From Streptomyces liliiviolaceus (GTDB lineage: Bacteria > Actinomycetota > Actinomycetes > Streptomycetales > Streptomycetaceae), in contig NZ_JAGPYQ010000001.1 of NCBI RefSeq assembly GCF_018070025.1, positions 3,472,001 through 3,536,000 on the forward strand: 64,000 nucleotides of DNA, in the 5' to 3' direction. How positions within the stretch are numbered: position 1 is the first letter of the stretch; every line of letters begins with the position of its first letter. A program made the position numbers and the translations under genes. Below the pieces are notes generated by a model. It saw only the letters and a list, made by a program, of their open reading frames with translations, made no database searches and had not been told where the DNA came from. This document shows positions 1,540 through 13,520 of the stretch, in pieces.

Positions 1540-2808
1540 TTACTGCCCCTGGGCCGTCTGTGGGCCGTCCGGTGCTGGATCGGGCCCCGCGTACAGGCTG
1601 TCCACGGCCATGCGAGCGCGCGCGTCGCTGTTCGGCATGAGGTGGGTGTAGACCCGGAGCGTGAACCCCGGGTCGTTGTGCCCGAGATAGCGGCTCAGCG
1701 CCTTGATGTTCTCCCCGGCGTTCAGCAAAACCGACGCGTAGAAGTGCCTCAGGGCGTGCATGCCGTGTTCGCGGGCCGCTTGGTGTCGCTCACCCGCCTC
1801 CGGCTCCGGCAGCACGCCGGCCGCTACGAGAGCGGGCTTCCAGGCGCGATCGTTGAAGTCGGTTCGGCGAACCGCGCCTGCACCATCAAGGCGGGTGAAC
1901 AGCAATTGCCGTGTCACCGGGCGGCCGTCCTGCCGGAGCCACGGCAGGGTGATTGAGACCGGCGGGAACGCCTTCATATGGCTTTTGAGGATGTCCGCCA
2001 CGCGGTCGGACAGAGGAACGTCACGAAGCTTGTTGCGCTTCGGCGGACCGAACACGAGTCCCCCGGTCGTCACCTTGACCTGGTTCACGACGTGCAGCCA
2101 CCCGGAGTCAAAGTCGATTTCGTCCACGGGTAGTCCGAAGATCTCCCCTTGCCGCAACCCGCATCCTGCCCCGAGGTCGACCGCCGCACGGAAGCGCTCG
2201 GGCAGAGCCTCCCGGACGCCGAAGACGCGTTCAGCCGCCCACGGCACCACACGGCCGGTTCCCGGCGCAGGAGGGCGTACGGACTGTGCGCGGCACGGGT
2301 TCTTCAATAGGTGACCGTCATCGACGGCCGCGTTGAGGATCGTCGACACGCTGTTGTAGATCACCCGTCGGTACGACGACGCGGGTATGGCCCGCTCCAA
2401 CTCGCTCAGCCAGTCCCGGATGTGCTCCGGCTTGAAGGAACCGAGAGGGCGCGTGCCGATATAGGGAATCGCGTGACCGCGAACGGAAGAGGTGACCGTT
2501 TCACGGGTTGTCAGGTCGGTGGTCTGGGTGCTCAGCCACTTCTCGGCGTACTGCCCGAACGTCGTTCGGCCGGCGGCAGGGTCCACGTAGGTGCCGCTGT
2601 CCATGTCGGCTTCCGTCTTCGTGAGCCACTTCTCGGCGAGCCGCTTCTGTCCGTCGGGGTAGCTCTTGGACTTCTCGGTGCCGTCGGGGCCGATGTAGCG
2701 GGCCCGGTAGCGCAGGCCGGTGCCGTGGCGGTCGCTTTTGACGCGGGTGGTCTTGCCCTGGGCGTTGGTGTTGGTCTTGTACCAGCGGTCTTGGATGTGG
2801 CCTGCCAT
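1540..2808 (-). CDS. int: tyrosine recombinase / integrase
   Basis: A 422-residue phage-type integrase that should join the attP of the circular element to the glnA2 3' end. An N-terminal arm-binding-type region (about 1-75) and a SAM-like core-binding domain (about 82-170) precede the catalytic domain. The catalytic residues are visible: R219 (GLRQGE), H351 and R354 (HALRH), H377 (LGH) and the nucleophile Y387 (VYTHL). It is full length for AICE integrases. The gene is convergent with glnA2 and adjacent to attL. A 17-bp perfect hairpin separates its start from the upstream xis gene, so its expression may be insulated from the rep-xis transcript. Confidence 0.95.
   Translation of the reverse strand: MAGHIQDRWYKTNTNAQGKTTRVKSDRHGTGLRYRARYIGPDGTEKSKSYPDGQKRLAEKWLTKTEADMDSGTYVDPAAGRTTFGQYAEKWLSTQTTDLTTRETVTSSVRGHAIPYIGTRPLGSFKPEHIRDWLSELERAIPASSYRRVIYNSVSTILNAAVDDGHLLKNPCRAQSVRPPAPGTGRVVPWAAERVFGVREALPERFRAAVDLGAGCGLRQGEIFGLPVDEIDFDSGWLHVVNQVKVTTGGLVFGPPKRNKLRDVPLSDRVADILKSHMKAFPPVSITLPWLRQDGRPVTRQLLFTRLDGAGAVRRTDFNDRAWKPALVAAGVLPEPEAGERHQAAREHGMHALRHFYASVLLNAGENIKALSRYLGHNDPGFTLRVYTHLMPNSDARARMAVDSLYAGPDPAPDGPQTAQGQ
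1551..1569 (+). repeat. 19-bp direct repeat flanking attP, left copy (candidate integrase arm site)
   Basis: GGGCCGTCTGTGGGCCGTC occurs here and at 17249-17267 in the same orientation. Each copy is two GGGCCGTC octamers spaced by TGT. In the circular element the copies would lie about 90 and 105 bp on either side of the core repeat, a layout typical of arm-type sites. This copy is inside the 3' end of int. Confidence 0.5.
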
Positions 2809-2831
2809 GTGGCGGCGGTCCTCTCGACATG

Positions 2832-2869
2832 CAGCAGGGAGAGCCGCCGGGTGGCGGCTCTCCCTGCTG
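2832..2869 (-). terminator. 17-bp perfect hairpin between xis and int
   Basis: CAGCAGGGAGAGCCGCC (2832-2848) pairs perfectly with 2853-2869 around a GGGT loop. It lies 18 bp past the xis stop and about 24 bp ahead of the int ATG. It is most simply the terminator of the rep-xis transcript, but could also act as an int leader attenuator. No T-run follows, as is usual in Streptomyces. Confidence 0.7.
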
Positions 2870-2887
2870 TCTGCGGTAGTTGCGGGA

Positions 2888-3145
2888 TCAGGCGGCGGCC
2901 TGGTCGTCGGTCTTGCGATCAGTGACGTAGTCGTGGACGTCGGCGGGGTCGTAGCGCAGGTGTTTCCCGATGCGGAATCCGGGTGGTCCGGTGCGCTTCT
3001 TGTGCCACTGGTAGACGGTCTCTTTGGGCACTTTGAACATCACGGCGATGTCATCGGGGGTCAGGTACTGGTCTGGAAGGCCGCGCCGGAGGGTGGCGAA
3101 GGGGTCGGCACGGACGGGGGCGGATGCGCTCACTGCGTCCTCCAC
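2888..3145 (-). CDS. xis: excisionase, MerR-like helix-turn-helix (HTH_17 type)
   Basis: An 85-residue protein with one winged helix-turn-helix of the excisionase/HTH_17 type. The recognisable core is YLTPDDIAVMF near residue 27, then VPKETVYQWHKK and a wing FRIGKHLRY. Such proteins bend attachment-site DNA and direct the integrase toward excision. The gene sits between the replication helicase and int, as in other AICEs. A large inverted repeat lies immediately upstream at 3165-3233. Confidence 0.85.
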   Translation of the reverse strand: MEDAVSASAPVRADPFATLRRGLPDQYLTPDDIAVMFKVPKETVYQWHKKRTGPPGFRIGKHLRYDPADVHDYVTDRKTDDQAAA

Positions 3146-3164
3146 AAGGTGGAATCACATTGCT

Positions 3165-3233
3165 CTGAGTCGTGACTCATCGCGACTCAGAGCAGGTTGG
3201 CGGGGTCTTGAGTCGCGATGAGTCACGACTCAG
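3165..3233. repeat. 25-bp inverted repeat at the rep-xis junction
   Basis: Arms 3165-3189 and 3209-3233 are perfect reverse complements with a 19-bp spacer. Each arm is itself built from TGAGTCG and CGACTCA half-sites, so the GAGTC core recurs several times in 69 bp. The right arm overlaps the last codons and stop of the helicase gene; the left arm is just upstream of xis. It may be an iteron-type replication origin or an operator. Confidence 0.6.
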
Positions 3234-4647
3234 GCGAATGTGGTTCGCGCTGGTTGAGGGTGATTCCGCTGTAGGTGGCGACCTGTTGCCCGTAGGCGTC
3301 GCGGGGGCGGGTGCGGTTGAGCTGGGGAACCACGGAGAGCAGGTTGCGGCCGAAGACCTGCTTGGTGCCGGCGCGGACGCCGTTGTCCTCGGCCCACTCG
3401 CGCCAGACCGTCCACAGCGCGTCCACGGGGACGCTGCATGTCGGGCCGGTCGCGCAGCGTTCACGGACGAACGCGCTGGTGGGTGAGGCGGTGTCTTGCA
3501 TGGTGGTGACCGCTTCACGGCTGGACTTCGGTTCCGTGATCCGGCCCGTCTGCTGGAGCCGGGCGAGGCCTTCCAGAGCCCAGTTGAGGATGCCGGGCAT
3601 CTCCGTGGTGAGCTTGTCCATGAGGGTGGGATCTTCCTTGCCCAGCCACGACACGGTCATGTTGAGCAGCACGAACCGTTTGGCGATGACGCCTGAGGAG
3701 TCGCCGAAGTGCGGCAGCTCGTTGGACAGGATCATCAGCCGGGTGGGCAGCTTGCCGGTCCACACGGCGCGGTACTTGCGGTCCACGTCGATCGTGTCTT
3801 CACCAGAGATCGTCAGGAGTCGTTCAACGACCTGGCTGTTGTTGCTGTTGCCGTCCAGCCGGGCGTCCGAGATGACGGCGAGCGGCTTGCCCACGAGGGT
3901 GGACAGACCGAAGTTCGTGCCGAGTCCGGCGAGGGTGGGCCCGGCCAAGTTCTCCTTGCCGACCAGTTCTTTGAGGACGCGGGCGATGGTGCCTTTGCCG
4001 GATCGTGTGGGGCCGACCATGAGGAGGATCTTCTGCTGGTCGGTGCGGCCGGACAGGACGTAGCCGAACCACTCCTGAACAGCGTGGACGGCGTCGGGGT
4101 CGTCGGGCCACAACTGCGCCAGGAAGCGTTCCCACGTTGGTGCGGCGGCGGTGGGGTCGTAGGTGAAGGGGACGGAGACGAGGTTGAAGAATCCGGGACT
4201 GTGCGGCAGGAGCGCGCGGTCACGAATCCTCAGCAGTCCGTTCTCACACGCCACGATCGGGCTTTCCTCCTGCTCGCCGGCGCCCTGGTTGTCGAGCCAT
4301 GCGGGGGCGTCCAGGTCGGTGGGCAGGAGCGTGATCGAGCCGAGCGCGTCCAGCAGGTTGCTGATCTTCTGCTTGGTCGGTGCCCAGTCGCGTTCCTCGG
4401 TCTGCCCGTCCTTGACGGGCACCCGGTAGAGAGCGTGCTCAAGACGCTCGTACATCGCTGCGCGCACCTGCGCTTCGTCGAACTCGCGCCAGCAGGTGCC
4501 GTTCCAGCGCATCCAGGACGCGCGCCAGCGCCGGTAGATGAGCTGTTCGTCCTCGGTCTCCCAGTCGGGCAGCAGACGACGGGCGACGGCCATGGGGTGG
4601 GACGGCGCGGGAAGTTCCTCGGTCTCGGTGGCAGGCTGCTTCATCAT
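3223..4647 (-). CDS. superfamily 3 (D5/P4-like) replication helicase
   Basis: A 474-residue replication protein resembling the helicase half of phage P4 alpha and D5-type primases. Counted from the chosen ATG, the Walker A motif GPTRSGKGT is at 212-220, a Walker B-like LAVISDAR near 256-263, and SF3 motif C LMILSNELP near 304-312. The ATG at 4647 is chosen because GGGAGGG lies upstream and it overlaps the stop of the preceding ORF (ATGATGA), implying translational coupling; the in-frame extension to 4821 is mostly antisense-like arginine-rich residues. With the prim-pol two genes upstream it forms a split RepPP-like initiator for episomal replication of the excised element. Confidence 0.85.
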   Translation of the reverse strand: MMKQPATETEELPAPSHPMAVARRLLPDWETEDEQLIYRRWRASWMRWNGTCWREFDEAQVRAAMYERLEHALYRVPVKDGQTEERDWAPTKQKISNLLDALGSITLLPTDLDAPAWLDNQGAGEQEESPIVACENGLLRIRDRALLPHSPGFFNLVSVPFTYDPTAAAPTWERFLAQLWPDDPDAVHAVQEWFGYVLSGRTDQQKILLMVGPTRSGKGTIARVLKELVGKENLAGPTLAGLGTNFGLSTLVGKPLAVISDARLDGNSNNSQVVERLLTISGEDTIDVDRKYRAVWTGKLPTRLMILSNELPHFGDSSGVIAKRFVLLNMTVSWLGKEDPTLMDKLTTEMPGILNWALEGLARLQQTGRITEPKSSREAVTTMQDTASPTSAFVRERCATGPTCSVPVDALWTVWREWAEDNGVRAGTKQVFGRNLLSVVPQLNRTRPRDAYGQQVATYSGITLNQREPHSPES

Positions 4648-4991
4648 GCGGCGGCCCTCCCTTCCCGGGGGGTGCGAAGCGGGCATGCGTCGCGGTGGTC
4701 GGTGTGCTCGATGATCAGGGCCAGGACGCGCCGCCGGCCGAACGCCCGCCGCTCCCACCCACACGCGCACCGCGAGGACGCGGTGGGGGTGGCGCCGTAC
4801 GGGGCGCAGATGGTCAGCCACGCGACCGGGTAGCGGCCGTCTGCGGTCTGTCGGTCAGGGAGAACAGCAGTGGGGACGCCTTCGGCGACGCCCTTCGAGT
4901 CGCCTACGGCCGTCCGGGGTCCGGCAGGTGCGGCGGCCTGCGGACCGGTGGGGTGCCGGGTGAGGCTCTTAGAGGGGAGAGGGTTGGTCAT
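4644..4991 (-). CDS. small cysteine/histidine-rich protein of the replication operon
   Basis: A 115-residue protein of unknown function between the primase and the helicase. It overlaps both by 4 bp (ATGA), so it belongs to the replication operon. The C-terminal half has a run of candidate metal ligands: C at CAPYG, C-x-C at RCACGW, then H, H and C at EHTDHRDACP. The N-terminal half is low complexity. A zinc-binding accessory role in replication is an inference from position only. Confidence 0.65.
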   Translation of the reverse strand: MTNPLPSKSLTRHPTGPQAAAPAGPRTAVGDSKGVAEGVPTAVLPDRQTADGRYPVAWLTICAPYGATPTASSRCACGWERRAFGRRRVLALIIEHTDHRDACPLRTPREGRAAA

Positions 4992-5896
4992 GCGGCCCTG
5001 CCCCGCGGGGAGTTGTGGGTGATCGACCAGTCCAGCGCGCGGCGGATCACGTCGTCGTAGTAGCGCTGTGGCTGTGTGGCGTTGGCCCCCGCCGCTCCCC
5101 TAAGAGCCTGCTCAACCACAGATCGGGCGAGGTCGCCGGACGCGACGAACCGTCCCAGAGCCCGTGCGGCTCGTAGGAGGGTGGCGTTGCGGGTGCCGTC
5201 GGCGGCGGTGGCCACGTTCCGCACCTCACAGTCGAGTGCTACGTCCGCGTATCGGCGTGATTGCCCCGCTACGACCCCTGTAGGAGCCTGTACTGGCTTG
5301 GGGGCGGGTTGAAGGATGCTCAGCAGCCACGCGGGCACCGGGGCCGCCACAGAGCCGCCTATGGCTTCGTACGGTCCGGAGGGGGTGGTGCTGCCCGCGG
5401 CGACGACATATCCACCGCACGCTCGGGTGTCGACCAACGGAGCGATGCTGCCTGCCGTGTTGGTCAGCCGCACGCCGTCCGGTGCGGTGAAGTACAGGTG
5501 CTGTCCGCCGCTCGCGGTCCGGGTCCGGTAGGTGTGGGGGACGGCGTGGCCGGTGTGCTCGCAGAGCGCCTCAAAGGTCGTCACGCCGTCAGGCGTGCCC
5601 GCATCGCCCTTGTCTTGGCTCTTGTCCTTGGGCACGTCCAGATCGACGACGACCAGCCGTGACGGACCGGTGGCGATACCGACGTTGAACGGCCCATGTG
5701 ACCAGGCCACACGGATACGGTCCGGGTCCGTCGTGGCCCGCTGCTCCCACTTGGCATGGCCGCTCGCGCAAGGGCCGGTGCCTGGGCACGACGTTTCGCC
5801 GTGCAGGGCCGGCCGCTTACTGCCGACCCGGAGCGGGAAGACGTACCAGCCTCGCTCTGTGGCGCTCATGGCCGCGTTCAGGAGGTGCTCGCTCAT
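4988..5896 (-). CDS. bifunctional DNA primase/polymerase (prim-pol, AEP superfamily)
   Basis: A 302-residue archaeo-eukaryotic-type primase/polymerase. The catalytic acidic pair is in VVVDLDVPK near residue 84-92; SGGQHLYF near 130 and the R-x-CGGYVVAAGS block near 160 are family motifs. The GWYVFPL start after an N-terminal helix is also typical. The C-terminal 100 residues are helical. Its stop overlaps the next gene by 4 bp and its start overlaps the stop of the upstream gene. Together with the SF3 helicase it should initiate replication of the circular form, a role known for RepPP-type AICEs. Confidence 0.88.
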   Translation of the reverse strand: MSEHLLNAAMSATERGWYVFPLRVGSKRPALHGETSCPGTGPCASGHAKWEQRATTDPDRIRVAWSHGPFNVGIATGPSRLVVVDLDVPKDKSQDKGDAGTPDGVTTFEALCEHTGHAVPHTYRTRTASGGQHLYFTAPDGVRLTNTAGSIAPLVDTRACGGYVVAAGSTTPSGPYEAIGGSVAAPVPAWLLSILQPAPKPVQAPTGVVAGQSRRYADVALDCEVRNVATAADGTRNATLLRAARALGRFVASGDLARSVVEQALRGAAGANATQPQRYYDDVIRRALDWSITHNSPRGRAA

Positions 5897-6264
5897 GCCG
5901 CAACCTCCGGGTGAAGGTAGGCGACCAGCTTGCCCAGCGCGCGGGCATAGGCGATCTCGGAGCGGGTGGACGTGCCGATACGGGTTCCGACGACGATGAC
6001 CTGATCGGCAAGCCGGATCTTCGCCTTGTGGAGCCGGTCAAGCCGGTCTTTCAACAGGTCGGCGTCGGTGGGGTCGGCCCACAGGAGATGCGGTTGTTTC
6101 ATGTTGCAGCCGACTGAGAGGACGATCCGGCCCATGGCGGTCTGCCTGAGATTGGTCTCGGTGAACTCATCCATGAACTCGGTGGATCCGCACAGAACGA
6201 CGATCAGCGGCATGTCCGCGAGGGGTGCGGCGAGGGCTCGCCGGATGGGGGTGAGTTGGGTCAT
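5893..6264 (-). CDS. DUF4406 / nucleoside 2-deoxyribosyltransferase-like protein
   Basis: A 123-residue protein with a Rossmann-like nucleoside deoxyribosyltransferase fold signature: PLIVVLCGSTEF near residue 19, VIVVGTRIG near 89, and STRSEIAYA, whose glutamate matches the catalytic or binding position of that superfamily. It may act on nucleotides, but no substrate can be named. The start has AGGAG 9 nt upstream. It is the first gene of the replication operon and overlaps the primase by 4 bp. It is preceded by the conserved leader hairpin at 6304-6340. Confidence 0.65.
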   Translation of the reverse strand: MTQLTPIRRALAAPLADMPLIVVLCGSTEFMDEFTETNLRQTAMGRIVLSVGCNMKQPHLLWADPTDADLLKDRLDRLHKAKIRLADQVIVVGTRIGTSTRSEIAYARALGKLVAYLHPEVAA

Positions 6265-6285
6265 GCTGGAGTTCTCCTGTTTCTG

Positions 6286-6340
6286 TCGAAGGGACGGAGA
6301 ACCGGGGCGGTCGCGGTCTTTGGCGAGAGGCGACCGCCCC
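6286..6340 (-). promoter_or_regulatory. leader hairpin copy A with conserved 15-nt loop
   Basis: An 11-bp perfect stem (6304-6314 with 6330-6340) encloses a loop that reads CTCTCGCCAAAGACC on the minus strand. On the RNA it is followed by TCCCTTCGA and the ribosome binding site of the DUF4406 gene. The same loop, stem position and downstream motif occur in copies B (11767-11818) and C (12677-12737). It starts 8 bp after the stop of the upstream gene, so a terminator role is also possible. Confidence 0.7.
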
Positions 6341-6348
6341 AGCCACGT

Positions 6349-6828
6349 CTAGCCGTGGAAGTGATTGCGCTTGATCACGGCCTTGCGGATGTGGAAGGTG
6401 TTGCCGCCGTTGTGGCCGCTCGCGCTGAACACCTGCACCGCCACCCAACCGCCGAAGATCACGGCGGCGAGGATGACGAGCTGGGTGATCAGGGCGGTCA
6501 GTGCGGTGATGAACGCGGTCAGCAGGAAGAGGCCGCCGCACACCGCGCCGAACCCGATCCCTCCGAGGGCGATGTTCACCGCCGTGCGCGAGACGGCCGG
6601 CTTGGCCGCGAGGGGTTCGGGCTTGGCGGGCTCGATGGAGTAGCCGGTGACGACGCGACCGTCCGGTAGGACGACGCTCGTCACCGCCGGGATGCTGCTC
6701 GGCTGTACCGGTACGAGCGGCGCGGCGTGCTGAATCGGGGCGAGGGGCATCGGGTGGTGGACTTCCAGGGCCGCCGCGTCACGCACGGCCGGATGCTGCC
6801 GGTCGTAGGGCGTGGTGGGATCGTTCAC
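6349..6828 (-). CDS. two-segment membrane protein (Spd-like, AICE-specific)
   Basis: A 159-residue protein with a proline-rich cytoplasmic N-terminal part, a VLPDGRVVTGY motif near residue 55, and a long hydrophobic stretch (about 83-137) that can form two membrane spans. The C-terminal tail FHIRKAVIKRNHFHG is basic. It overlaps the upstream ORF by 4 bp. Small membrane proteins next to tra genes in Streptomyces elements are often intermycelial spread (Spd) proteins. That role is inferred from position and topology, not from a recognised domain. Confidence 0.7.
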   Translation of the reverse strand: MNDPTTPYDRQHPAVRDAAALEVHHPMPLAPIQHAAPLVPVQPSSIPAVTSVVLPDGRVVTGYSIEPAKPEPLAAKPAVSRTAVNIALGGIGFGAVCGGLFLLTAFITALTALITQLVILAAVIFGGWVAVQVFSASGHNGGNTFHIRKAVIKRNHFHG

Positions 6829-7076
6829 TTTGTACCCCCAGCGAGGTAGGCGCGGCCCGCGGCGGTCGCCTTCACGGGATCGGTGTGGCCGTTGCCGATG
6901 TCGACGAGCCCGAGGGCGGCCAGCGGGTGAAAGGTGCGGTCGTTGACCGTGTACTGCGTGCCATCAAGGCGCCAGCGGCCACAAGGCGCGTGGTGGAACA
7001 GGATTCCGTGGCCGTCGTCTTGGTCAGCGATGGTCTGCAACAGCGTGAGAACGGCGCGCGAAAGTTTGATGGTCAT
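6825..7076 (-). CDS. small winged-helix-like hypothetical protein
   Basis: An 83-residue protein. The pattern of an N-terminal helix (LSRAVLTLLQTIADQ), a middle WRLDGTQYTVNDRTFHPLAALGLV and a C-terminal VKATAAGRAYL resembles a degenerate winged helix with the usual LxxLGLV...TxxGRAYL layout. I do not recognise the family. It overlaps the downstream membrane protein gene by 4 bp and lies 12 bp from the upstream one, so it is part of the spread/transfer operon. Confidence 0.6.
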   Translation of the reverse strand: MTIKLSRAVLTLLQTIADQDDGHGILFHHAPCGRWRLDGTQYTVNDRTFHPLAALGLVDIGNGHTDPVKATAAGRAYLAGGTK

Positions 7077-7088
7077 GGGTGCCTCCCG

Positions 7089-7283
7089 TCAGTTGCCGAG
7101 AGCGGACAGGGCGTCGGCGGACGCCTGCACGAGGTTGCGGATGGGCTCGTACGCACCGGTCCCAGCGGCGAAGAACCCGAAGAGGAACAGCACGATGGCC
7201 GCGCCCCCTCCGGCGGACTTGGTCTTGACGGCGAGGGCGGACGCGGCGCCGAACAGCAGCACGGCGGAAATGTTGAGGATCAT
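7089..7283 (-). CDS. small membrane protein (SpdA-like)
   Basis: A 64-residue protein with two hydrophobic segments, ISAVLLFGAASALAV (about 5-19) and AAIVLFLFGFFAA (about 28-40), and an amphipathic C-terminal helix. The ATG at 7283 overlaps the stop of the upstream zinc-protein gene (ATGA). A longer in-frame reading is only the shadow of that gene. Topology and position match small spread proteins of Streptomyces conjugative elements, but no motif proves it. Confidence 0.6.
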   Translation of the reverse strand: MILNISAVLLFGAASALAVKTKSAGGGAAIVLFLFGFFAAGTGAYEPIRNLVQASADALSALGN

Positions 7284-7558
7284 CGGGAGCCTTCCGGGCG
7301 CGGGGTGTCGGTGCCGGCGCGGTAGATGCGGGCCCACCGGTTGTAGAGCCAGCGGCCCACTCGGATGCGCTTGCCGGTCGCGTGGCAGCGGCGGCAGTCC
7401 TTGCCGCGCTTGGGCCGTCCCTTGCGGTCGGTCTTCAGCGCGTGGCCCATGCCGCGGCACTTGCGGCAGTTGCCGAACGGCGAGCCAGCACACACCGCGA
7501 TATAACAGAGAGTGACGCCGAGAATCAGGGTGATAGCGAGCAGGGCAGGGGTCATCAC
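7280..7558 (-). CDS. membrane-anchored zinc-ribbon protein (DnaJ-like CxxCxG motifs)
   Basis: A 92-residue protein with one N-terminal membrane segment (residues 5-24) followed by two CxxC units, CRKCRGMG and CRRCHATGKR, arranged like a DnaJ-type zinc ribbon. A basic C-terminal region follows. It overlaps the next small membrane gene by 4 bp. The family is common in actinomycete mobile elements; its role is unknown to me. The pair of CxxC motifs makes zinc binding likely. Confidence 0.7.
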   Translation of the reverse strand: MMTPALLAITLILGVTLCYIAVCAGSPFGNCRKCRGMGHALKTDRKGRPKRGKDCRRCHATGKRIRVGRWLYNRWARIYRAGTDTPRPEGSR

Positions 7559-7596
7559 GGGCCCTTCCAGGCGGGTTTCCAGGGTTTCCGCAGGTG

Positions 7597-7690
7597 GGCC
7601 GCTATCCGCTAGCGGCCTGATCAGAGCAGGTTTGGGGCGCTAGCGGGGTCGCTAACGTTAGCGGGGTGTGCCGCTAGCGTTAGCGACCCC
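7597..7690. repeat. CGCTARCG octamer cluster (candidate clt transfer locus with TraB recognition sites)
   Basis: Six perfect octamers of the form CGCTAGCG or CGCTAACG (either strand) begin at 7607, 7638, 7650, 7656, 7672 and 7678. A larger inverted repeat (7645-7664 with 7671-7690, one mismatch, 6-bp spacer) contains four of them. The cluster starts 7 bp past the traB stop. In pSVH1 and relatives, TraB binds 8-bp repeats in clt just downstream of traB; the position and 8-bp size fit. The hairpin may also terminate traB transcription. Confidence 0.6.
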
Positions 7691-7696
7691 AGAGGG

Positions 7697-9934
7697 TCAG
7701 CCCGCGTCCCGCTTTCCGTCACGCTCCGCAATCGCGGCGAGGATGTGGGCACGCTCGATGCCGCGCCGGTTGACGACCTTGCCGTCCACGCGGCGGCCCA
7801 CCTGGATGGTGGCGACGCCGTGCGGCTTCAGGGCCGCGTTCAGCGCGTCGGGGTCCCATCCGTCGTAGACCTCGGGGCGCAGGTCGGCGAGCCGGGCAAC
7901 GACCGTCTCGGACCACGCCTTGGGCTCCTTGGCGGGGACCACGGCGAGGATGTCGGCGAGCAGGTCGTAGGCGGGACCGGTGACCGTCTCGGGTGCTTCC
8001 CCGAGCGCGTGGCCGGACAGGAGTCCGGCCTTCTCGCGGACCTTGCGGGCGCGGGCCGCGATGACGTCGGCGCCGGGTCCGTCGACGTAGACGGAGCCGA
8101 CGATCCTCGCGTCCGAGCCTTCACCGATGAAGTAGTGAATGCCCTTGTCACCCCACGCGAACATCGTCGCGCGGACCCCGCGCTTGTAGGCGGAGGTGCC
8201 GAGCACCATGTCGTTCTCGGTCTGGCCCATGACCTTCAGGCACCACCGCGCCGACGCGTTCGCGCTGATACCGGTGGGCAGGGACTTGGCATCCGGGCGC
8301 TGGGTGGCCGCGAGGAACACGATGCCGGTCGCGGGACCGCGCTTGACCAGGTCAGTTGCGATCTCCTCGAACTCCTTGCCGTGCTCCCCGTGCTCGAACA
8401 GCACCTGGCATTCGTCCACCGCGATCACGATCGGGTGCAGACCCAACGACCGCTTGTCCGCCAGCGCGCTGGTCACCTTGTTCTCGGGGCAGATGTCCCG
8501 CGGAAGCGACCGGATCACCTTCGTGCGGCGGCGCAGTTCCTCGCGCAGGGCCCGCCAGTCGGCGAGCGCGTAGGCGATGGCTTCGTCGTCGTCACCGGCC
8601 GCGTGCCGGTGGGAGACGGCGTTGCCGACCGGGTCAAGGTCGCCGGTGCCCTTCATGTCGTAGGTGTGCAGCTCCGCCCGCGGGTCCAACGCGGCGATGA
8701 GCATGAGCAGCCTGAGCAGGAAGGTTTTACCCATGCGCGGGATGGCACCGATGACGCCCGCGATGTACATGAGGGTGATCTCGACCCAGCGTCCGCGCTG
8801 GTCGGTGCCGTAGGCGACCGGCTTGAACAGGTCGACCGTACCGGCCTTGGCCAGCGGCCAGGCAGGCTTCTTCGACTTGTTCAGATCCTGGTCCCCGACC
8901 CACAGCACGAGGTGCCCGGTGTGCTCATCCGGGACCGCCTCCGGCCACACGCACCCGAGAGGGCGGCGCAGGCCGGACGCGAGGCGGTCGCGCCGCTCGA
9001 TGACGTCGGTGACCGTCACGCCGTAGGGGAGGTTCCCCTCCGCACGCCATCCGGGGCCGTCGCGGGTGATCGGGGCGGTGAACTCGAACCCGTCCCGCCC
9101 CTTGCCCTGCGCCTGGTTGATGGCGGGAATGCCGAGCGCTCCCAGCGCGCGCAGCACGATGTCACTGGTGAGCTTGACCGCCTTGGGCAGTTCCACAGCC
9201 TTGTGGATGACCGGTGCATCCGCCTTGCGTCCCGCGGCCCCGAGCGCCATCGTCACGGCGCCGACCGACACGGCCTGAAGCCAGTCGGGGGCGAGGACGT
9301 AGAGGGCGAGTGCGGAGCCGAGTCCGATGAACATCGCCAGCACGGTCACGAGGGTCCGCAGTCGGACCCGTCCGTCGCGCTGCCGGGACAGCTTCAGGTA
9401 CTCGGCCGCGTCCTCGCGCCGTACCGCGGCGAGCCTCACCGGTTCACCCTCGCGGTCTGCCACCCACCGCATCGTGCCGCCGATGAACCGCGCGGTACCG
9501 GTCGGCGCCTGGAAGGCGAGGCGGGCGGCGTAGACCGGGGAGCGGAGCGCGTGGTAGCCGAGCGAGTGGGCGTAGTGCCGGGCCACCCACGCGGTGGCGG
9601 TCTTCAGTTCCGCGAGCGACTTGAGCCAGATGGGGACGACCGGGCGGCGCCGTGCGGCGAGCAGCCGACCGAGGTAGCCCGGACCGGCCGCCTTCACGGT
9701 CGGCTGGTCGACCATGATGCGGGCGGTCGGGTCGGCCGACTCGGCACCCGACCGGTCCGGTGTCGAGTCGGCCGACGGGTCGGCGTCGGGTCGGGCGGTC
9801 GAGTCGGCCGACTCGCTGCGGGCGGATCGGGCCTTGTCGAGGTCGACCACCTCGCCCCCGGTCGGGGCGGTCGGGTCGGCCATCTCGGCTTCCAGTCGGT
9901 TGAACAGTTCGTTGTCGTCGTCGGGGTGCTTCAC
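7697..9934 (-). CDS. traB: TraB-type FtsK/SpoIIIE DNA translocase (conjugative transfer)
   Basis: A 745-residue ATPase that would move double-stranded DNA between hyphae. From the GTG start, a serine/aspartate-rich N-terminal region (about 35-75, coded by repetitive GTCGGCCGACTCG-like DNA) is followed by membrane segments near 193-235. Walker A GAIPRMGKT is at about 396-404 and Walker B PIVIAVDE near 501-508. The C-terminal 70 residues form a likely winged-helix domain, the part that reads clt repeats in TraB proteins. GTG at 9934 is preferred over the ATG at 9949 because GGAAGG lies 7 nt before it. It is followed by the octamer cluster and preceded by a hairpin leader. Confidence 0.88.
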   Translation of the reverse strand: MKHPDDDNELFNRLEAEMADPTAPTGGEVVDLDKARSARSESADSTARPDADPSADSTPDRSGAESADPTARIMVDQPTVKAAGPGYLGRLLAARRRPVVPIWLKSLAELKTATAWVARHYAHSLGYHALRSPVYAARLAFQAPTGTARFIGGTMRWVADREGEPVRLAAVRREDAAEYLKLSRQRDGRVRLRTLVTVLAMFIGLGSALALYVLAPDWLQAVSVGAVTMALGAAGRKADAPVIHKAVELPKAVKLTSDIVLRALGALGIPAINQAQGKGRDGFEFTAPITRDGPGWRAEGNLPYGVTVTDVIERRDRLASGLRRPLGCVWPEAVPDEHTGHLVLWVGDQDLNKSKKPAWPLAKAGTVDLFKPVAYGTDQRGRWVEITLMYIAGVIGAIPRMGKTFLLRLLMLIAALDPRAELHTYDMKGTGDLDPVGNAVSHRHAAGDDDEAIAYALADWRALREELRRRTKVIRSLPRDICPENKVTSALADKRSLGLHPIVIAVDECQVLFEHGEHGKEFEEIATDLVKRGPATGIVFLAATQRPDAKSLPTGISANASARWCLKVMGQTENDMVLGTSAYKRGVRATMFAWGDKGIHYFIGEGSDARIVGSVYVDGPGADVIAARARKVREKAGLLSGHALGEAPETVTGPAYDLLADILAVVPAKEPKAWSETVVARLADLRPEVYDGWDPDALNAALKPHGVATIQVGRRVDGKVVNRRGIERAHILAAIAERDGKRDAG

Positions 9935-9969
9935 TGAGGTTCCTTCCACTTCCGGGTGTGAGGGAGAGC

Positions 9970-10063
9970 GGGCCCGGCCGTCGCTGTAGGAGGTGGGCGG
10001 CCGGGCCCGTGAACTGATGCTGAGCGCTGCGTTGAGCGGTAAGGGCTACAACCTGTAGCCCTT
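9970..10063 (-). promoter_or_regulatory. traB leader hairpin and upstream palindrome
   Basis: An 11-bp perfect stem (9970-9980 with 9998-10008) lies about 35 bp ahead of the traB start. Upstream, AAGGGCTACA (10041-10050) and TGTAGCCCTT (10054-10063) form a second perfect inverted repeat with a 3-nt centre. One may be the terminator of the RRQRL gene, whose stop is at 10085, and the other an operator for traB, which is normally tightly repressed. The sequence alone cannot assign the roles. Confidence 0.5.
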
Positions 10064-10084
10064 CTACGGGTGGACACTTCGTCG

Positions 10085-10465
10085 TCAGGTGCGCTGTTCT
10101 TCGAGGGCGATGCACAGTCCGCAGATGCCGTACGAGGTGGGGATGCAGTAGCCGACATCGATCCGGCAGCGGGGGCAGGTGCGGCGGGCGAGCATCGCCA
10201 GCGCGAGCGCGCCCCACTTGCGGGAGGTCATCGGCCGGACCGGCTTGGCCCGGTCGACGTGGTAGAGGTACGCGACGCGGACACCGCCGGCGCGTCGGTT
10301 GCCGCGCATCACCTGTGCCGCGATCGGCTGTCCGCCGGGCCGTAAGCCCTTCGCCCGGAGTTGGCGGCGGGTCGCCAGACCCTCCGGCGCCAGACGCCAT
10401 GGGTAGGTGGGAATCCCGTGCAGTGCGCCGGTCGGGTCGTTGCACTTCCCCCAGACCGCGGACAT
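10085..10465 (-). CDS. RRQRL motif-containing zinc-binding protein
   Basis: A 126-residue protein of a family recurrent in actinomycete mobile elements. It has the RRQLRAKGLRPGG signature near residue 31 and a C-terminal four-cysteine zinc site: C-P-R-C, then C at VGYCIP and C-G-L-C near the end. The ATG at 10465 touches the stop of the DUF2637 gene (TGATG), showing coupling; the in-frame extension to 10630 is the shadow of that gene. Its function is unknown; position suggests a role in transfer or its control. Confidence 0.75.
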   Translation of the reverse strand: MSAVWGKCNDPTGALHGIPTYPWRLAPEGLATRRQLRAKGLRPGGQPIAAQVMRGNRRAGGVRVAYLYHVDRAKPVRPMTSRKWGALALAMLARRTCPRCRIDVGYCIPTSYGICGLCIALEEQRT

Positions 10466-11463
10466 CAGGCGGCCACAGCCGTCGGTGTCTCGCCCTCCGG
10501 GTTCACGGCGTGCAGCGGGCGGCCGTCGGCACGCTCGGTCTTCATCGCGTCCCGGAGCTTGCGGGCGTTGGCAGCCGAGCAGTGCACCGCAGTTCGGACG
10601 GCTTCCGCGTTCAGCTCCGCATCCGTCCACGACGCGGTGAGCGTGCGAGCCTCGCTCAGCAGCTCCTCAAAGGTGCGCTGAGGGGTGCCCTTTGCCTTCA
10701 CCCTGGTCTGCCGGGGCGGGCGCTGCTTGGACGCGGCCGGGGGCGCCGGCCGCTTCCCCGCCGGGGGCGGGGCGGGGATGTCCTGCTCGCTGCCGGGGGC
10801 CATAGTGCCCATGCGGAGCATCACGCGCTCACGCCGCGGGGTCTTGGTCCGCCACGAGCGGCCGTAGGTTTCGCGCAGGTCCGCGCGGGCCAACTGCCGC
10901 TCCTTCTCCCGCGCCAGTGCCTCGCTGTAGGAGGTGATCTCCCACAGCGTCATCCGGCGCCACAGCGCGAACGTGGACGGGAAGGCGAGCAGCCAGCGGG
11001 AGAACCGGATCTTCTCCATGCGGCGGCCGGTGGCGGCGCCGATCCGCACGGCGTAGATGTGCGCGCCGATCTCGGAGAACACCACCCACAACAGCGGCAT
11101 CGTGCCGTGCGCGACCTTCGCCCACACCTCATGGCCGGCAGCGACGTTCAGCCCGCAGGTGATCAGGGTGAGGATCCAGGGCACGAACCGCACCCACGCG
11201 AGCGCCATGTCCATCCGGATCAACAGGAGGTTGGCGACGGTGAACACCGGGATGGCCACGTCGATACCGACCGGCAGCATCCACGGCGAAGTGAACCCCC
11301 ACCGCGCCGCGGCCTCGGAGACAGCGGCGAAGGAAGAGATCAGACCGAGCGCGCCGACACCGGCTGCGGCCAGCGCTCCGACACCGGCGAGCCCCAACTC
11401 AGGACGGGTCAGCGGCGGCACCCCGGACGTGGCCGTCTCAGGGGCGGGGACTGTAGCGCTCAT
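10465..11463 (-). CDS. DUF2637 membrane protein (SpdB-like)
   Basis: A 332-residue protein. The N-terminal 170 residues hold four to five hydrophobic segments, including GLAGVGALAAAGVGALGLIS, WMLPVGIDVAIPVFTV and FVPWILTLITCGLNVAAG, which is the DUF2637 layout. The C-terminal half is cytoplasmic, basic and ends in a helix-turn-helix-like segment (ELNAEAVRTAVHCSAANARKLRDAM). DUF2637 proteins accompany traB in Streptomyces plasmids and AICEs and are regarded as spread proteins. It overlaps the upstream gene by 4 bp and the downstream gene by 1 bp. Confidence 0.8.
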   Translation of the reverse strand: MSATVPAPETATSGVPPLTRPELGLAGVGALAAAGVGALGLISSFAAVSEAAARWGFTSPWMLPVGIDVAIPVFTVANLLLIRMDMALAWVRFVPWILTLITCGLNVAAGHEVWAKVAHGTMPLLWVVFSEIGAHIYAVRIGAATGRRMEKIRFSRWLLAFPSTFALWRRMTLWEITSYSEALAREKERQLARADLRETYGRSWRTKTPRRERVMLRMGTMAPGSEQDIPAPPPAGKRPAPPAASKQRPPRQTRVKAKGTPQRTFEELLSEARTLTASWTDAELNAEAVRTAVHCSAANARKLRDAMKTERADGRPLHAVNPEGETPTAVAA

Positions 11464-11750
11464 GCCGCTACCCCCTTGCGGGCCACGCGGCGGCGCCGGG
11501 CGGTGCGGGTCAGCGGGGTGACGTCGAACAGGTCCGGGTTGTCCTCGACGACCTGCGCCGCGATGCGGATCAGGTCGTCGGGCAGGTCCGGGTTGTCGGC
11601 GAGGATGTCGCGCGCCGCGTCCTCGCGGGCCGCGCGCTCTTCATCCGTCTCGCCCTCGACCCCGAGCCACAGTTCAACGGGGGTGCCAAGCGCGAGTTCC
11701 GCGAAGTCTTCGGCAGAGATCGCCTGTTGGCGGCCGATATAGGTACGCAT
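11460..11750 (-). CDS. small acidic hypothetical protein
   Basis: A 96-residue protein, acidic in the middle (EGETDEERAAREDAARDILADNPDLPDDLIRI) with a basic tail (RTARRRRVARKG). A DNPDL motif occurs twice. No family is recognised. It overlaps the DUF2637 gene by 4 bp (ATGA) and is first in that operon. AGGA lies about 9 nt before its ATG, and hairpin copy B sits in its leader. Confidence 0.65.
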   Translation of the reverse strand: MRTYIGRQQAISAEDFAELALGTPVELWLGVEGETDEERAAREDAARDILADNPDLPDDLIRIAAQVVEDNPDLFDVTPLTRTARRRRVARKGVAA

Positions 11751-11766
11751 GGAGGAAGTCCTGACG

Positions 11767-11818
11767 TCGAAGGGATGCCGGGGCGGTCGCGGTCTTTGGC
11801 GAGAGGCGACCGCCCGGG
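11767..11818 (-). promoter_or_regulatory. leader hairpin copy B with conserved 15-nt loop
   Basis: The stem (11781-11790 with 11806-11815, ten pairs) holds the loop 11791-11805, identical to copies A and C. TCCCTTCGA (minus strand, 11767-11775) again lies between the hairpin and the start codon at 11750. It follows the DUF4097-like gene stop by about 30 bp, so it may also terminate that gene. Confidence 0.7.
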
Positions 11819-11847
11819 AAGAGAGGAAGGGGTGCGGGGCGCGGGGG

Positions 11848-12660
11848 CTAGCTGATCTGGACGGAGCCGCTGGTCACTCGGCGGCGGATGTCCAGGTGCG
11901 AGGCGCCAGTGATGCGCGCGCTCCCTGAAGTGGCGTTCACGGCGAGACGGCCGGTGGCCTGCGGTGTCGCGGCCATGCGGACGTTGCCGGAGGTGAGGTT
12001 CAAGCGGGCGTGATGGCCGCTGTAGGCGCCGACGGTGACGTTGCCGGAGGTGAGATTGATGTCCAGCGGACCGCTCACCTCGCCGACGATGACGCTGCCG
12101 CTGGTGACCCTGGCTTCCAGGTCGCCGACCTGCTCGGCGGTCAGCATGCCGGAGGTGCCGTCGTACTCCAGGCGTGCCAGTGCGCCCGTGACGAGGGTGT
12201 TCGTGGAATGCGTGCTGATCGCGGCTACCGACCGCGCGGGCAGGTGGACGATCGCGCTGATCGGCGTCGCCGCGTCGCCGGCCGGGCCGGTGGCGGTGAC
12301 CTCGCGGCCGTTGACGAAGACCTTGCCGCCACCGTGACCGGTGACGTGCACGTTGCCGGTGATGACGTGTACGCCGCTGCCGCCGGAGAACGTCATGGTG
12401 CTGCCACCCATGCTGATCGTGGTGCTGCCACTCATGCCGCCGGCCACGTCCGGGACGCGGACCATGAGGTTCTGCCCCCGGAGACTGACGTCGGTGTCGC
12501 GGATCGCGTCCGCCGACGGGCCGGAGGCGGCGTCGGTCTTCAGCACCATGTATGCCTGCTTCAGCTCCGGGTCGACCACGACGCGGATGGCGCCCGCGTT
12601 CATGGTCAGATTCAGGGCGATCGGGCCGAGGACGTCCACGGGAATCGTGCGTTCGGTCAC
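11848..12660 (-). CDS. DUF4097-like beta-strand repeat protein
   Basis: A 270-residue protein dominated by short repeats such as VTSGSV, LTSGNV and ATSGSA, each about 20 residues apart, from residue 60 to the end. This is the DUF4097/head-GIN-type right-handed beta-helix pattern. No signal peptide or membrane span is visible, unlike many DUF4097 proteins, so it is probably cytosolic. The GTG at 12660 is chosen because GGAG precedes it and leader hairpin C ends upstream; the in-frame reading to 12747 runs through that hairpin. Its function in the element is unknown. Confidence 0.75.
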   Translation of the reverse strand: MTERTIPVDVLGPIALNLTMNAGAIRVVVDPELKQAYMVLKTDAASGPSADAIRDTDVSLRGQNLMVRVPDVAGGMSGSTTISMGGSTMTFSGGSGVHVITGNVHVTGHGGGKVFVNGREVTATGPAGDAATPISAIVHLPARSVAAISTHSTNTLVTGALARLEYDGTSGMLTAEQVGDLEARVTSGSVIVGEVSGPLDINLTSGNVTVGAYSGHHARLNLTSGNVRMAATPQATGRLAVNATSGSARITGASHLDIRRRVTSGSVQIS

Positions 12661-12676
12661 GGTGAACTCCAGGAAG

Positions 12677-12737
12677 TCGAAGGGACGTACGAAGCACCGG
12701 GACAGCCGCGGTCTTTGGCGAGAGACGGCCGTCCGGC
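12677..12737 (-). promoter_or_regulatory. leader hairpin copy C with conserved loop and changed stem
   Basis: The loop 12710-12724 is identical to copies A and B, but the stem differs: on the minus-strand RNA a U-A pair becomes C-G, G-C becomes A-U, and two pairs become G-U, so pairing is kept. TCCCTTCGA (12677-12685) again follows. No gene ends upstream of it, so it is not simply a terminator. It precedes the DUF4097-like gene start at 12660. Confidence 0.7.
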
Positions 12738-13042
12738 TCCCCCTCACCGCACCTGCGAGAGATGCGGATCAGGCAGCCGGCCTTCGCGCTAGGTGCGAAG
12801 GCGAGGTGAGGTGGTACTGGTGTCTCCTTCGGGAACACGGGCTCCCGGCGAAGGCGTACGGAGACGTGACCTTTCGGTCTGTAAGCCCTCCGGACTGCCA
12901 AGGGGTCCGGGTCCCTCGCCCCCGCCGAAACGGGGCCTCATGACCCCTTCCGGGGCCCTTTGGTGCTGCGGTCTTGCAGGTCAAGCACTTACGAACACAG
13001 CCGGTCGAAGCCCTATCGGGCTCGGCGTGCTGTTGTGACTTC
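12738..13042 (-). other. gene-free, hairpin-rich stretch (possible structured RNA)
   Basis: No convincing gene is seen. On the minus strand at least five hairpins follow in series between 12781 and 12935: 12781-12801, an extended one at 12822-12865, a GACC-GAAA-GGTC GNRA-type tetraloop at 12868-12879, CCGGAC/GTCCGG at 12890-12910, and CCCCG/CGGGG at 12920-12935. This density suggests a structured 5' leader or small RNA upstream of hairpin C. It may instead be a transfer or replication site. Confidence 0.35.
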
Positions 13043-13107
13043 AGATTGACCTAGGTCAATCTGACTGTCAAGGGGGTGCGGAGAAGGATCAGAGATTGAC
13101 CTAGGTC
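13043..13107. promoter_or_regulatory. operators of the GntR regulator
   Basis: AGATTGACCTAGGTCAATCT at 13043-13062 is a perfect 20-bp palindrome. The first 15 bases recur at 13093-13107, 17 bp before the gntR start. The pair suits cooperative autorepression of gntR and repression of the divergent minus-strand transcript. Confidence 0.75.
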
Positions 13108-13124: not shown

Positions 13125-13520
13125 ATGGACCAGAGCCCCGAAGCGCCCAAGCAGACGCCCACGGCCAAGGAGATTGCGGGGGAGTTCCGTGACAAGATCA
13201 CGGGCCCCGATCGCGAGTACGAGCCGGGGGACCAGCTCCCAGTCGCTCGCAAGCTCGCCAAGGAACTTGGCGTGCAGCTCATGACTGTTCAGAGCGCGTT
13301 TGGCCAGCTCCGTGATGAGGGACTGGTTCTCACTCAGCAGGGCCGTGGAACGTTCGTCCGCGATCCTTCTGTACCCCTCGGCACCGAGCCGGGCAGTAGC
13401 CCCGCATTCAGTGCTTTGGCGGCTGAGCTCAGCACGATTCATGACGCTCTCCACTCGCTCGGGGAACGTCTGGAGCGGCTTGAGCGGCTCGTGGGCAGCG
13501 AGACTCCACCATCGCCGTGA
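13125..13520 (+). CDS. GntR-family repressor (KorSA-like)
   Basis: A 131-residue regulator: a GntR-type winged helix in the first 80 residues (core YEPGDQLPVARKLAKELGV, then LMTVQSAFGQLRDEGLVLTQQGRGTFV) and a short C-terminal coiled-coil-like segment with no ligand-binding domain. Short GntR proteins of this kind (KorSA, KorA) silence transfer and replication genes of Streptomyces elements. Two palindromic sites lie directly upstream. It is one of only two genes of the element on the plus strand, divergent from the transfer block. Confidence 0.82.
   Translation: MDQSPEAPKQTPTAKEIAGEFRDKITGPDREYEPGDQLPVARKLAKELGVQLMTVQSAFGQLRDEGLVLTQQGRGTFVRDPSVPLGTEPGSSPAFSALAAELSTIHDALHSLGERLERLERLVGSETPPSP

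Follow-up and report, generated by a model that had tools for sequence, protein, structure and literature searches.

What does a hairpin do that stands in front of three genes of one mobile element, each time with the same apex? The question is raised by a stretch of 64,000 nucleotides of Streptomyces liliiviolaceus (contig NZ_JAGPYQ010000001.1, positions 3,472,001 to 3,536,000; hereafter the window), in which all three hairpins lie within a minus-strand gene row of 11-12 kb (approximately 1540-12740) containing the components of an actinomycete integrative and conjugative element (AICE). An earlier note on this DNA had read the hairpins as a functional RNA that governs several units of one element; many covarying copies now support the RNA element, while the control part is suggested by position and conservation. 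The hairpin is a defined structure, distributed over many genomes, codirectional with the next gene and set at a narrow distance from its start codon. The favoured explanation, held here at about even confidence, is a cis-acting messenger RNA (mRNA) hairpin whose hexaloop is read by a trans factor and which gates the first gene of each module, and it would probably form a common control point for element replication and transfer.

Copy A lies at 6304..6340, copy B at 11780..11816 (hexaloop 11796-11801) and copy C at 12699..12735 (hexaloop 12715-12720), all on the minus strand and all identified by sequence, fold and a covariance model, R1, which gives copy A 67.3 bits. They share the 15-mer CTCTCGCCAAAGACC, as previously claimed, and an exact search found it at exactly three sites of the window (6315-6329, 11791-11805, and 12710-12724), all on the minus strand, with no other exact site and one more at one mismatch in the 11.1 Mb genome. 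These 15 nucleotides had been described as an invariant loop; the sharing stands, but they do not form a single open loop, as folding pairs UCU with AGA inside them and leaves the hexaloop CGCCAA. In copy A, the lower-stem arms (6330-6340 / 6304-6314) carry an internal loop (6329 and 6315-6316), the mini-stem UCU (6326-6328) / AGA (6317-6319), and the hexaloop at 6320-6325. The arms of each window copy pair over at least 10 bp. Compared with A and B, copy C has two pairs changed on both sides (G-C to A-U and U-A to C-G) and two further changes that both give G-U, in agreement with the earlier description of an altered stem with its pairing kept. The common motif noted before the start codons is likewise present in all three copies, where TCCCTTCGAC stands between hairpin and start codon; among relatives, it is confined to one leader class, other leaders being of the AACTGGAG type. 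By sequence and fold, leader A, from the hairpin to the ATG (6265..6303, minus), contains GUCCCUUCGAC and the Shine-Dalgarno (SD) sequence AGGAG (6274-6278), and copy C is separated by 39 nt from the GTG start at 12660.

The three window copies exceed chance because further copies exist. Model R1 was built from 13 hairpin copies and its E-values are rough. Of 392 genomes from the genus, which the named matches of a pattern scan identify as Streptomyces, 183 have a match to it at E<=0.01; at family level, matches occur in 41 of 121 genomes from 11 of 17 genera, and at class level in 22 of 394 genomes, 20 of them in the window's own genus. The remaining two class matches (loci L207 and L210) have no loop core at one mismatch or fewer and were taken as chance. 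Such a search for covarying copies had been suggested as a check, and it returned many, as did loci selected by protein, 85 of 100 of which hold a copy. In genus genomes with the exact loop, copies have the same architecture, and in several loci two or three copies lie at distances of 1-7 kb from one another. The window's own genome has three extra copies, each directly before a Prim-Pol gene, and four Prim-Pol loci within one genome have the same hexaloop; the 11-mer core of the loop, sought across the genome for an antisense copy, occurs at 10 sites, of which six are the hairpins and four lack such a stem. The pattern scan of named genomes yielded at least 120 stretches, nearly all Streptomyces among the 80 listed, and a good hairpin from another family, that of Rugosimonospora (L274), is among the matches listed. 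Three non-actinobacterial matches (L240, L246, and L248) were taken as chance and dropped from a set of 143 distinct hairpins, while L246 and L248 are still within a curated set of 211 copies.

The plasmid record NZ_CP107792.1 also has a copy (L131, 6717-6757, minus), 39 nt before an annotated Prim-Pol gene. When copy A and its leader were compared by BLAST with plasmids and phages, weak matches only were obtained, in a search that is insensitive because it missed the copy-bearing NZ_CP107792.1; the best match was in the Streptomyces plasmid NZ_CP109056.1 (133873-133949, 98% covered, 74.7% identity, E 4e-3). The exact 15-mer is contained in 77 viral contigs, with the stem in one only (L095, 29 bits). 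At L120:9925-9960 and L095:11418-11453 (both minus), the 15-nt core sits on an unrelated stem in a phage-like context with no clear SD or start codon. Diverged copies with CGCCAA on a GC/GC mini-stem were found upstream of Prim-Pol in two of 19 other-family loci (L363 and L370, both of family f17). Two loci of family f18, L356 and L357, have hairpins of 13 and 10 bp upstream of Prim-Pol with a different common loop, CGGUCGGACCCC, and these perhaps represent an element of this kind with a different specificity.

Whether the apex is truly paired was read from a sample gathered independently of the loop. A Prim-Pol protein search of 256 genus genomes was positive in 109 at E<=1e-40 and gave approximately 140 rows. 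Of the first 107 rows, 100 supplied loci with 2.5 kb upstream, while the other seven were a duplicate, a fragment, the locus of the window itself, and four more, three of them known motif carriers; the 33 weakest rows stayed outside; three of these loci come from the window's genome, others from genomes already met in discovery, and three (L460, L481, and L491) are cut by contig ends or masked. Hairpins sought by stem and position only were found in 47 of the 100 loci, a count that understates their presence, since the start finder failed in many loci. Forty have a C.CCA. hexaloop and represent 29 distinct loops, one of which (L472, with the sole G-C closing pair) is probably chance; the other seven comprise the near variants CGACCAA (L416, L446, and L480) and CGGCAA (L422) and three chance hairpins (L407, L415, and L445). 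Across the loop-independent hairpins, the hexaloop is constant, and the mini-stem below it takes several paired forms (UCU/AGA, UCA/UGA, UUC/GAA, GUC/GAC). At fixed offsets, the closing pair p1 of the mini-stem is formed in 28 of 29 distinct loops (U-A 17, A-U 7, C-G 3, G-C 1, and one A-G) against a shuffled mean of 15.0 and in 0 of 10,000 shuffles, and the second pair p2 in 27 of 29 against 23.8 (6 of 10,000), counts that are not probabilities, the loci being mutually related. The third pair p3 has no covariation signal (19 of 29 vs 18.2 shuffled). Collapsed to 11 triplet combinations, p1 is formed in 10 (11 of 10,000 shuffles) and p2 in 10 (154 of 10,000). The mini-stem covariation therefore rests on the 29-loop sample, because one further variant set required a mini-stem, and the middle pair formed in all 143 distinct hairpins is no evidence, since that search pattern fixed it.

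The lower stem covaries as well, with two-sided changes at seven of 11 pairs against a shuffled mean of 2.0 in 11 distinct copies. The consensus is thus a free-sequence stem of approximately 9-16 bp, a small internal loop, a mini-stem of 2-3 bp, and the hexaloop CGCCAA, which is found in 128 of the 143 distinct hairpins. In a general scan of the 100 loci, the hexaloop of 90 copies was CGCCAA in 72, CACCACA in 10, and CUCCAA in three.

Is the hairpin read as RNA or as DNA? The general scan found 99 motifs in sense and 3 in antisense orientation, with 5 in shuffled sequence, and a start codon with SD at 22-51 nt follows 90 sense motifs in 85 of the 100 loci compared with one antisense motif; this scanner requires the mini-stem and misses wobble-extended stems, window copy A among them. 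The curated set leaves 211 copies after rejection of 15 of 226 unique matches, some of them perhaps real (L197, L188, and L130). A start codon lies within the searched 15-75 nt in 203 of the 211, and in 124 of these 203 it lies at 35-39 nt. At the closing pair of the 143 distinct hairpins, wobbles are U-G in seven cases and A-C in none, and none of the 15 rejected matches has A-C there. The sense-only closing-pair wobbles, the codirectionality with the next gene, and the narrow start-codon distance argue that the element acts as RNA. Lower-stem mismatches over 65 distinct arms are G-U in 16 cases and A-C in 23, with no wobble preference, where a strand-specific RNA helix would show one; taken by itself, this stem fails to discriminate between an RNA and a DNA palindrome. 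We conclude, without support from the lower stem, that the hairpin is RNA-level. A DNA site, such as a cruciform, a transfer or single-strand origin, or a recombination site, could accommodate those near-equal lower-stem mismatches, as well as a leader and first codons that unrelated genes share, as though these had been exchanged in one piece; it is nevertheless very improbable given the 99:3 codirectionality, the narrow start distance, the several copies per element, and closing-pair wobbles on the sense strand only.

If the hairpin is RNA, it might act on the transcript itself. An open reading frame (ORF) of 60 or more codons ends 1-11 nt before the hairpin in 130 of the 211 copies, and exactly 6 nt before it in 74. 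This position directly after a stop codon, between modules on the same strand, would suit intercistronic processing or stability, in which cleavage at the hairpin, or its action as a barrier to exonucleases, sets module-specific mRNA half-lives, with the loop as an RNase recognition feature; such a role appears unlikely, as it leaves unexplained why the hexaloop is retained although both stems drift and why the spacing to the start codon is narrow. GC-rich hairpins within a one-strand gene row of approximately 11 kb might also serve as an attenuator, a terminator, or an antitermination signal on RNA polymerase. However, no U-run follows any of the three window copies, and termination as such does not call for conservation of the hexaloop, so that action on the polymerase is improbable. 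A terminator scan, limited to loops of 3-8 nt and hence blind to these hairpins, found 3 against 2.9 expected.

The favoured mRNA hairpin would instead be a cis-acting part of the element's long polycistronic mRNA, forming between the upstream stop codon and the next ribosome-binding site, just upstream of the position of the 30S subunit. The hexaloop CGCCAA, presented on the mini-stem and internal loop above a stem of free sequence, would be the docking site of a trans-acting factor; this reading is drawn from a near-invariant hexaloop on changing stems, the narrow distance, and the many unrelated start codons. The factor, a protein or an RNA, would bind the hexaloop and switch the translation, or the stability, of the next gene, and one factor could thereby co-control replication, excision, and integration (copy A), transfer (copies B and C), and accessory slot genes.

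Several observations weigh against this mechanism, besides the relatedness of the sampled loci and the lower-stem mismatches given above. Fifteen of the 100 loci have no copy detected in the general scan. The SD is not clearly hidden, with a predicted unpaired probability of 0.40 in native and 0.47 in leader-shuffled sequence (98 of 196 copies), and the fold z-scores of the three window leaders are -3.8, -2.4, and -0.2. An exact complement of the hexaloop within -400..+200 was found in three of 90 copies and in six of a shuffled k-mer control. The copies of L179 and those of L130 each share a variant loop, but copies differ within L121, L124, and L187, and co-evolution of the loop with a partner is therefore not consistent. 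The trans factor is itself a candidate arrived at by inference.

A second conserved nucleotide element, GGCGAG, lies at nucleotides 23-28 of the downstream coding sequence (6237..6242, minus). GCGAG starts at coding nucleotide 23 or 24 in 109 of 264 distinct starts, against a background of 323 of 4902 30-nt windows; it occurs in two reading frames (101 and 8) and is therefore conserved as nucleotides, and of 70 MTQ-type starts, 62 use CGA as the ninth codon, compared with 5.0% of arginine codons. The GGCGAG element itself is real. The apical region is complementary to it (CUCGCC; -8.75 vs -6.87 kcal/mol with shuffled targets), but as a direct loop partner it was rejected, as permuted loops do equally well (-8.79) and GCGAG is retained in 10 of 13 copies with variant loops (CACCACA or CUCCAA). 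The loop as an anti-SD was also rejected as weak (own -5.90, permuted -5.78, shuffled -5.33), and against 16S with flanks and part of 23S it forms at most 8-9 bp, including wobbles.

A partner might alternatively be an RNA with a UUGGCG loop, for instance the antisense transcript of a copy, which would pair with the hexaloops by kissing and co-repress every copy in the manner of I-complex plasmids. The target loop of ColIb-P9 (5'-rUUGGCG-3'), which the title of a paper on that plasmid reportedly names, is exactly complementary to CGCCAA, and copy A heads the replication module. The kissing mechanism of I-complex plasmids works through such loops, and the antisense transcript of a copy would have a YUNR-type loop. 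Kissing hairpins have a long stem that is destabilised towards its top and capped by a 6-nt loop, an anatomy which the present hairpin fits. However, the transcript strand of the element contains no UUGGCG and the other strand has 10, three of these being the hairpins, so that a kissing partner could come only from the antisense strand or from outside, and we know of no antisense RNA for these hairpins. Antisense specificities usually diverge, whereas this hexaloop hardly varies across elements and is identical at the four Prim-Pol loci of one genome. Co-repression by such an RNA is accordingly regarded as unlikely.

Which genes does the hairpin head? The downstream proteins fall into ten or more BLAST clusters, two of which are C5 methylases that may be distant relatives. 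Of 203 proteins, 100 are Prim-Pol, 24 methylase-like without a Pfam match, 16 small CxxCxG proteins, and 15 MRTYIG; further clusters are C5 methylases (10 and 4), FtsK-like (7), DpdA (6), DUF4097 (5), and DnaB-like (4, one an artefact), with single members checked for DpdA, both C5 clusters, the DnaB N-terminal domain, and a borderline FtsK. In the Prim-Pol type, proteins from separate clusters have the leader and first codons (MTQPTxIRRE...) in common, as though a conserved start had stayed in place and the gene behind it had been exchanged. Maps of the genes in 42 loci, some without the hairpin because duplicates had been removed, place it usually between transfer/spread genes and replication-xis-int genes, with extra copies at the transfer end in some. 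It also heads the FtsK-like transfer gene itself in L114, L174, L175, and L177. The slot behind it often holds DNA-modification genes, such as DpdA (7-deazapurine; L006, L015, and L128) and C5 methylases (L135, L137, L179, and L180). The pSAM2-type locus L129 encodes RepSA (NF041486, 824.7 bits) and FtsK, and the hairpin stands before its CxxCxG gene.

Elements whose replication proteins are unrelated (Prim-Pol and RepSA) have modules headed by one and the same hexaloop, and for this reason the trans factor of the favoured explanation is more likely host- than element-encoded. Action of the RNA on translation, the existence of a trans factor, and its encoding by the host are all three things that we infer. 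It is tentatively proposed, as a doubtful extension, that a single host-encoded factor gates, via the CGCCAA receptor, the replication, excision, transfer, and accessory DNA-modification genes of all AICEs in a Streptomyces cell, irrespective of their replication machinery. If true, the mRNA of every resident element would answer to a master switch of the host, or to a host signal that has been hijacked. AICE control has so far been described as transcriptional (GntR/KorSA and Pra), and an RNA receptor shared by unrelated elements would place post-transcriptional control on top of it. An apparently undescribed structured RNA, with matches in nearly half of the Streptomyces genomes searched, heads genes for element replication and movement; the hairpin could help to fish out its factor and could serve as a modular leader for Streptomyces gene expression.

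The carrier in the window is an AICE, with an integrase, a replication protein, an FtsK/TraB-like transfer protein, and a GntR regulator, Prim-Pol and GntR being assigned by Pfam and the integrase and FtsK via an annotated plasmid relative and homology clusters. The integrase ORF (1540..2808, minus) has a relative annotated as site-specific integrase and belongs to homologue cluster 0, present in 34 of 42 loci. Copy A heads the gene at 5893..6264 (minus), directly before the replication module, whose Prim-Pol (PF09250; 4988..5896, minus) is the next gene. The product of 5893..6264, for which DUF4406 had been suggested, has no Pfam or NCBIfam match and resembles a nucleoside-2-deoxyribosyltransferase by eye only, whereas the DUF4097 name given to the gene behind copy C was borne out (PF13349; 11848..12660, minus, GTG start at 12660). 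Copy B heads an acidic ORF of the MRTYIG family (11460..11750, minus) with no Pfam or NCBIfam family match. The FtsK/TraB-like transfer protein (7697..9949, minus) has a BLAST relative on the plasmid annotated 'cell division protein FtsK', no Pfam match, and a weak NCBIfam TraB match (E 2.3e-4, far under the cut-off). The row also encodes a D5/DUF5906 replication protein and DUF2637, and no tRNA gene was found in the window. A divergent GntR regulator gene begins at 13125 (plus). Between it and the minus-strand genes, AGATTGACCTAGGTC occurs twice within 13041-13107, once inside a 24-bp perfect palindrome (13041-13064), and these sites are likely the GntR (KorSA-type) operator. The approximately 300 nt between this presumed operator and copy C (12740-13040, minus) form a long leader with several inverted repeats.

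How does the hairpin compare with known systems? The earlier note knew of no such named motif, and this holds in the databases and texts covered: Rfam 15 has no match above the gathering score in the window, and relaxing the threshold to E<=5 places none on the hairpins; nine further loci gave three tRNAs and one gntR-DTE only, none at hairpins; and none of the papers listed by full-text searches for the core sequence and for AICE/Streptomyces RNA motifs describes it. The gntR-DTE RNA (RF02989, 104 bits, at L170:1713-1883) is likewise a structured RNA in Streptomyces and its locus also bears the hairpin, but it is larger, lies elsewhere in L170, and does not match the hairpins. The sps site of the Streptomyces plasmid pIJ101 is similar as a short palindromic motif near transfer-related genes of Streptomyces mobile DNA; it is a fixed DNA palindrome, CGTCACGTGACG, bound by the DNA-binding protein SpdA2, with no variable arms or loop, unlike the hairpin here (PMC4170104). 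ANTAR-target RNAs are alike in that actinobacterial genes have them as hexaloop hairpins close to their start codons, but they consist of two tandem stem-loops with A1 and G4 in the hexaloops (PMC8164766). The present RNA is one hairpin with C1 and C4, and no second such hexaloop appears in the folds of the three window leaders. The Rep leader/Inc hairpins of I-complex plasmids have a 6-nt loop and a long, weak-topped stem before a replication gene, with a cis-partner pseudoknot near the start. The hairpin here is like those of ColIb-P9 in its 6-nt loop, in its weak-topped stem, and in preceding a replication gene, and CGCCAA is one of the two forms, UUGGCG or its complement, sought as a repZ/Inc loop. 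It differs in that no cis partner was found (three of 90 copies, control six; GGCGAG ignores the loop variants), and in that it is actinobacterial, occurs in several copies per element, and stands also before transfer and accessory genes.

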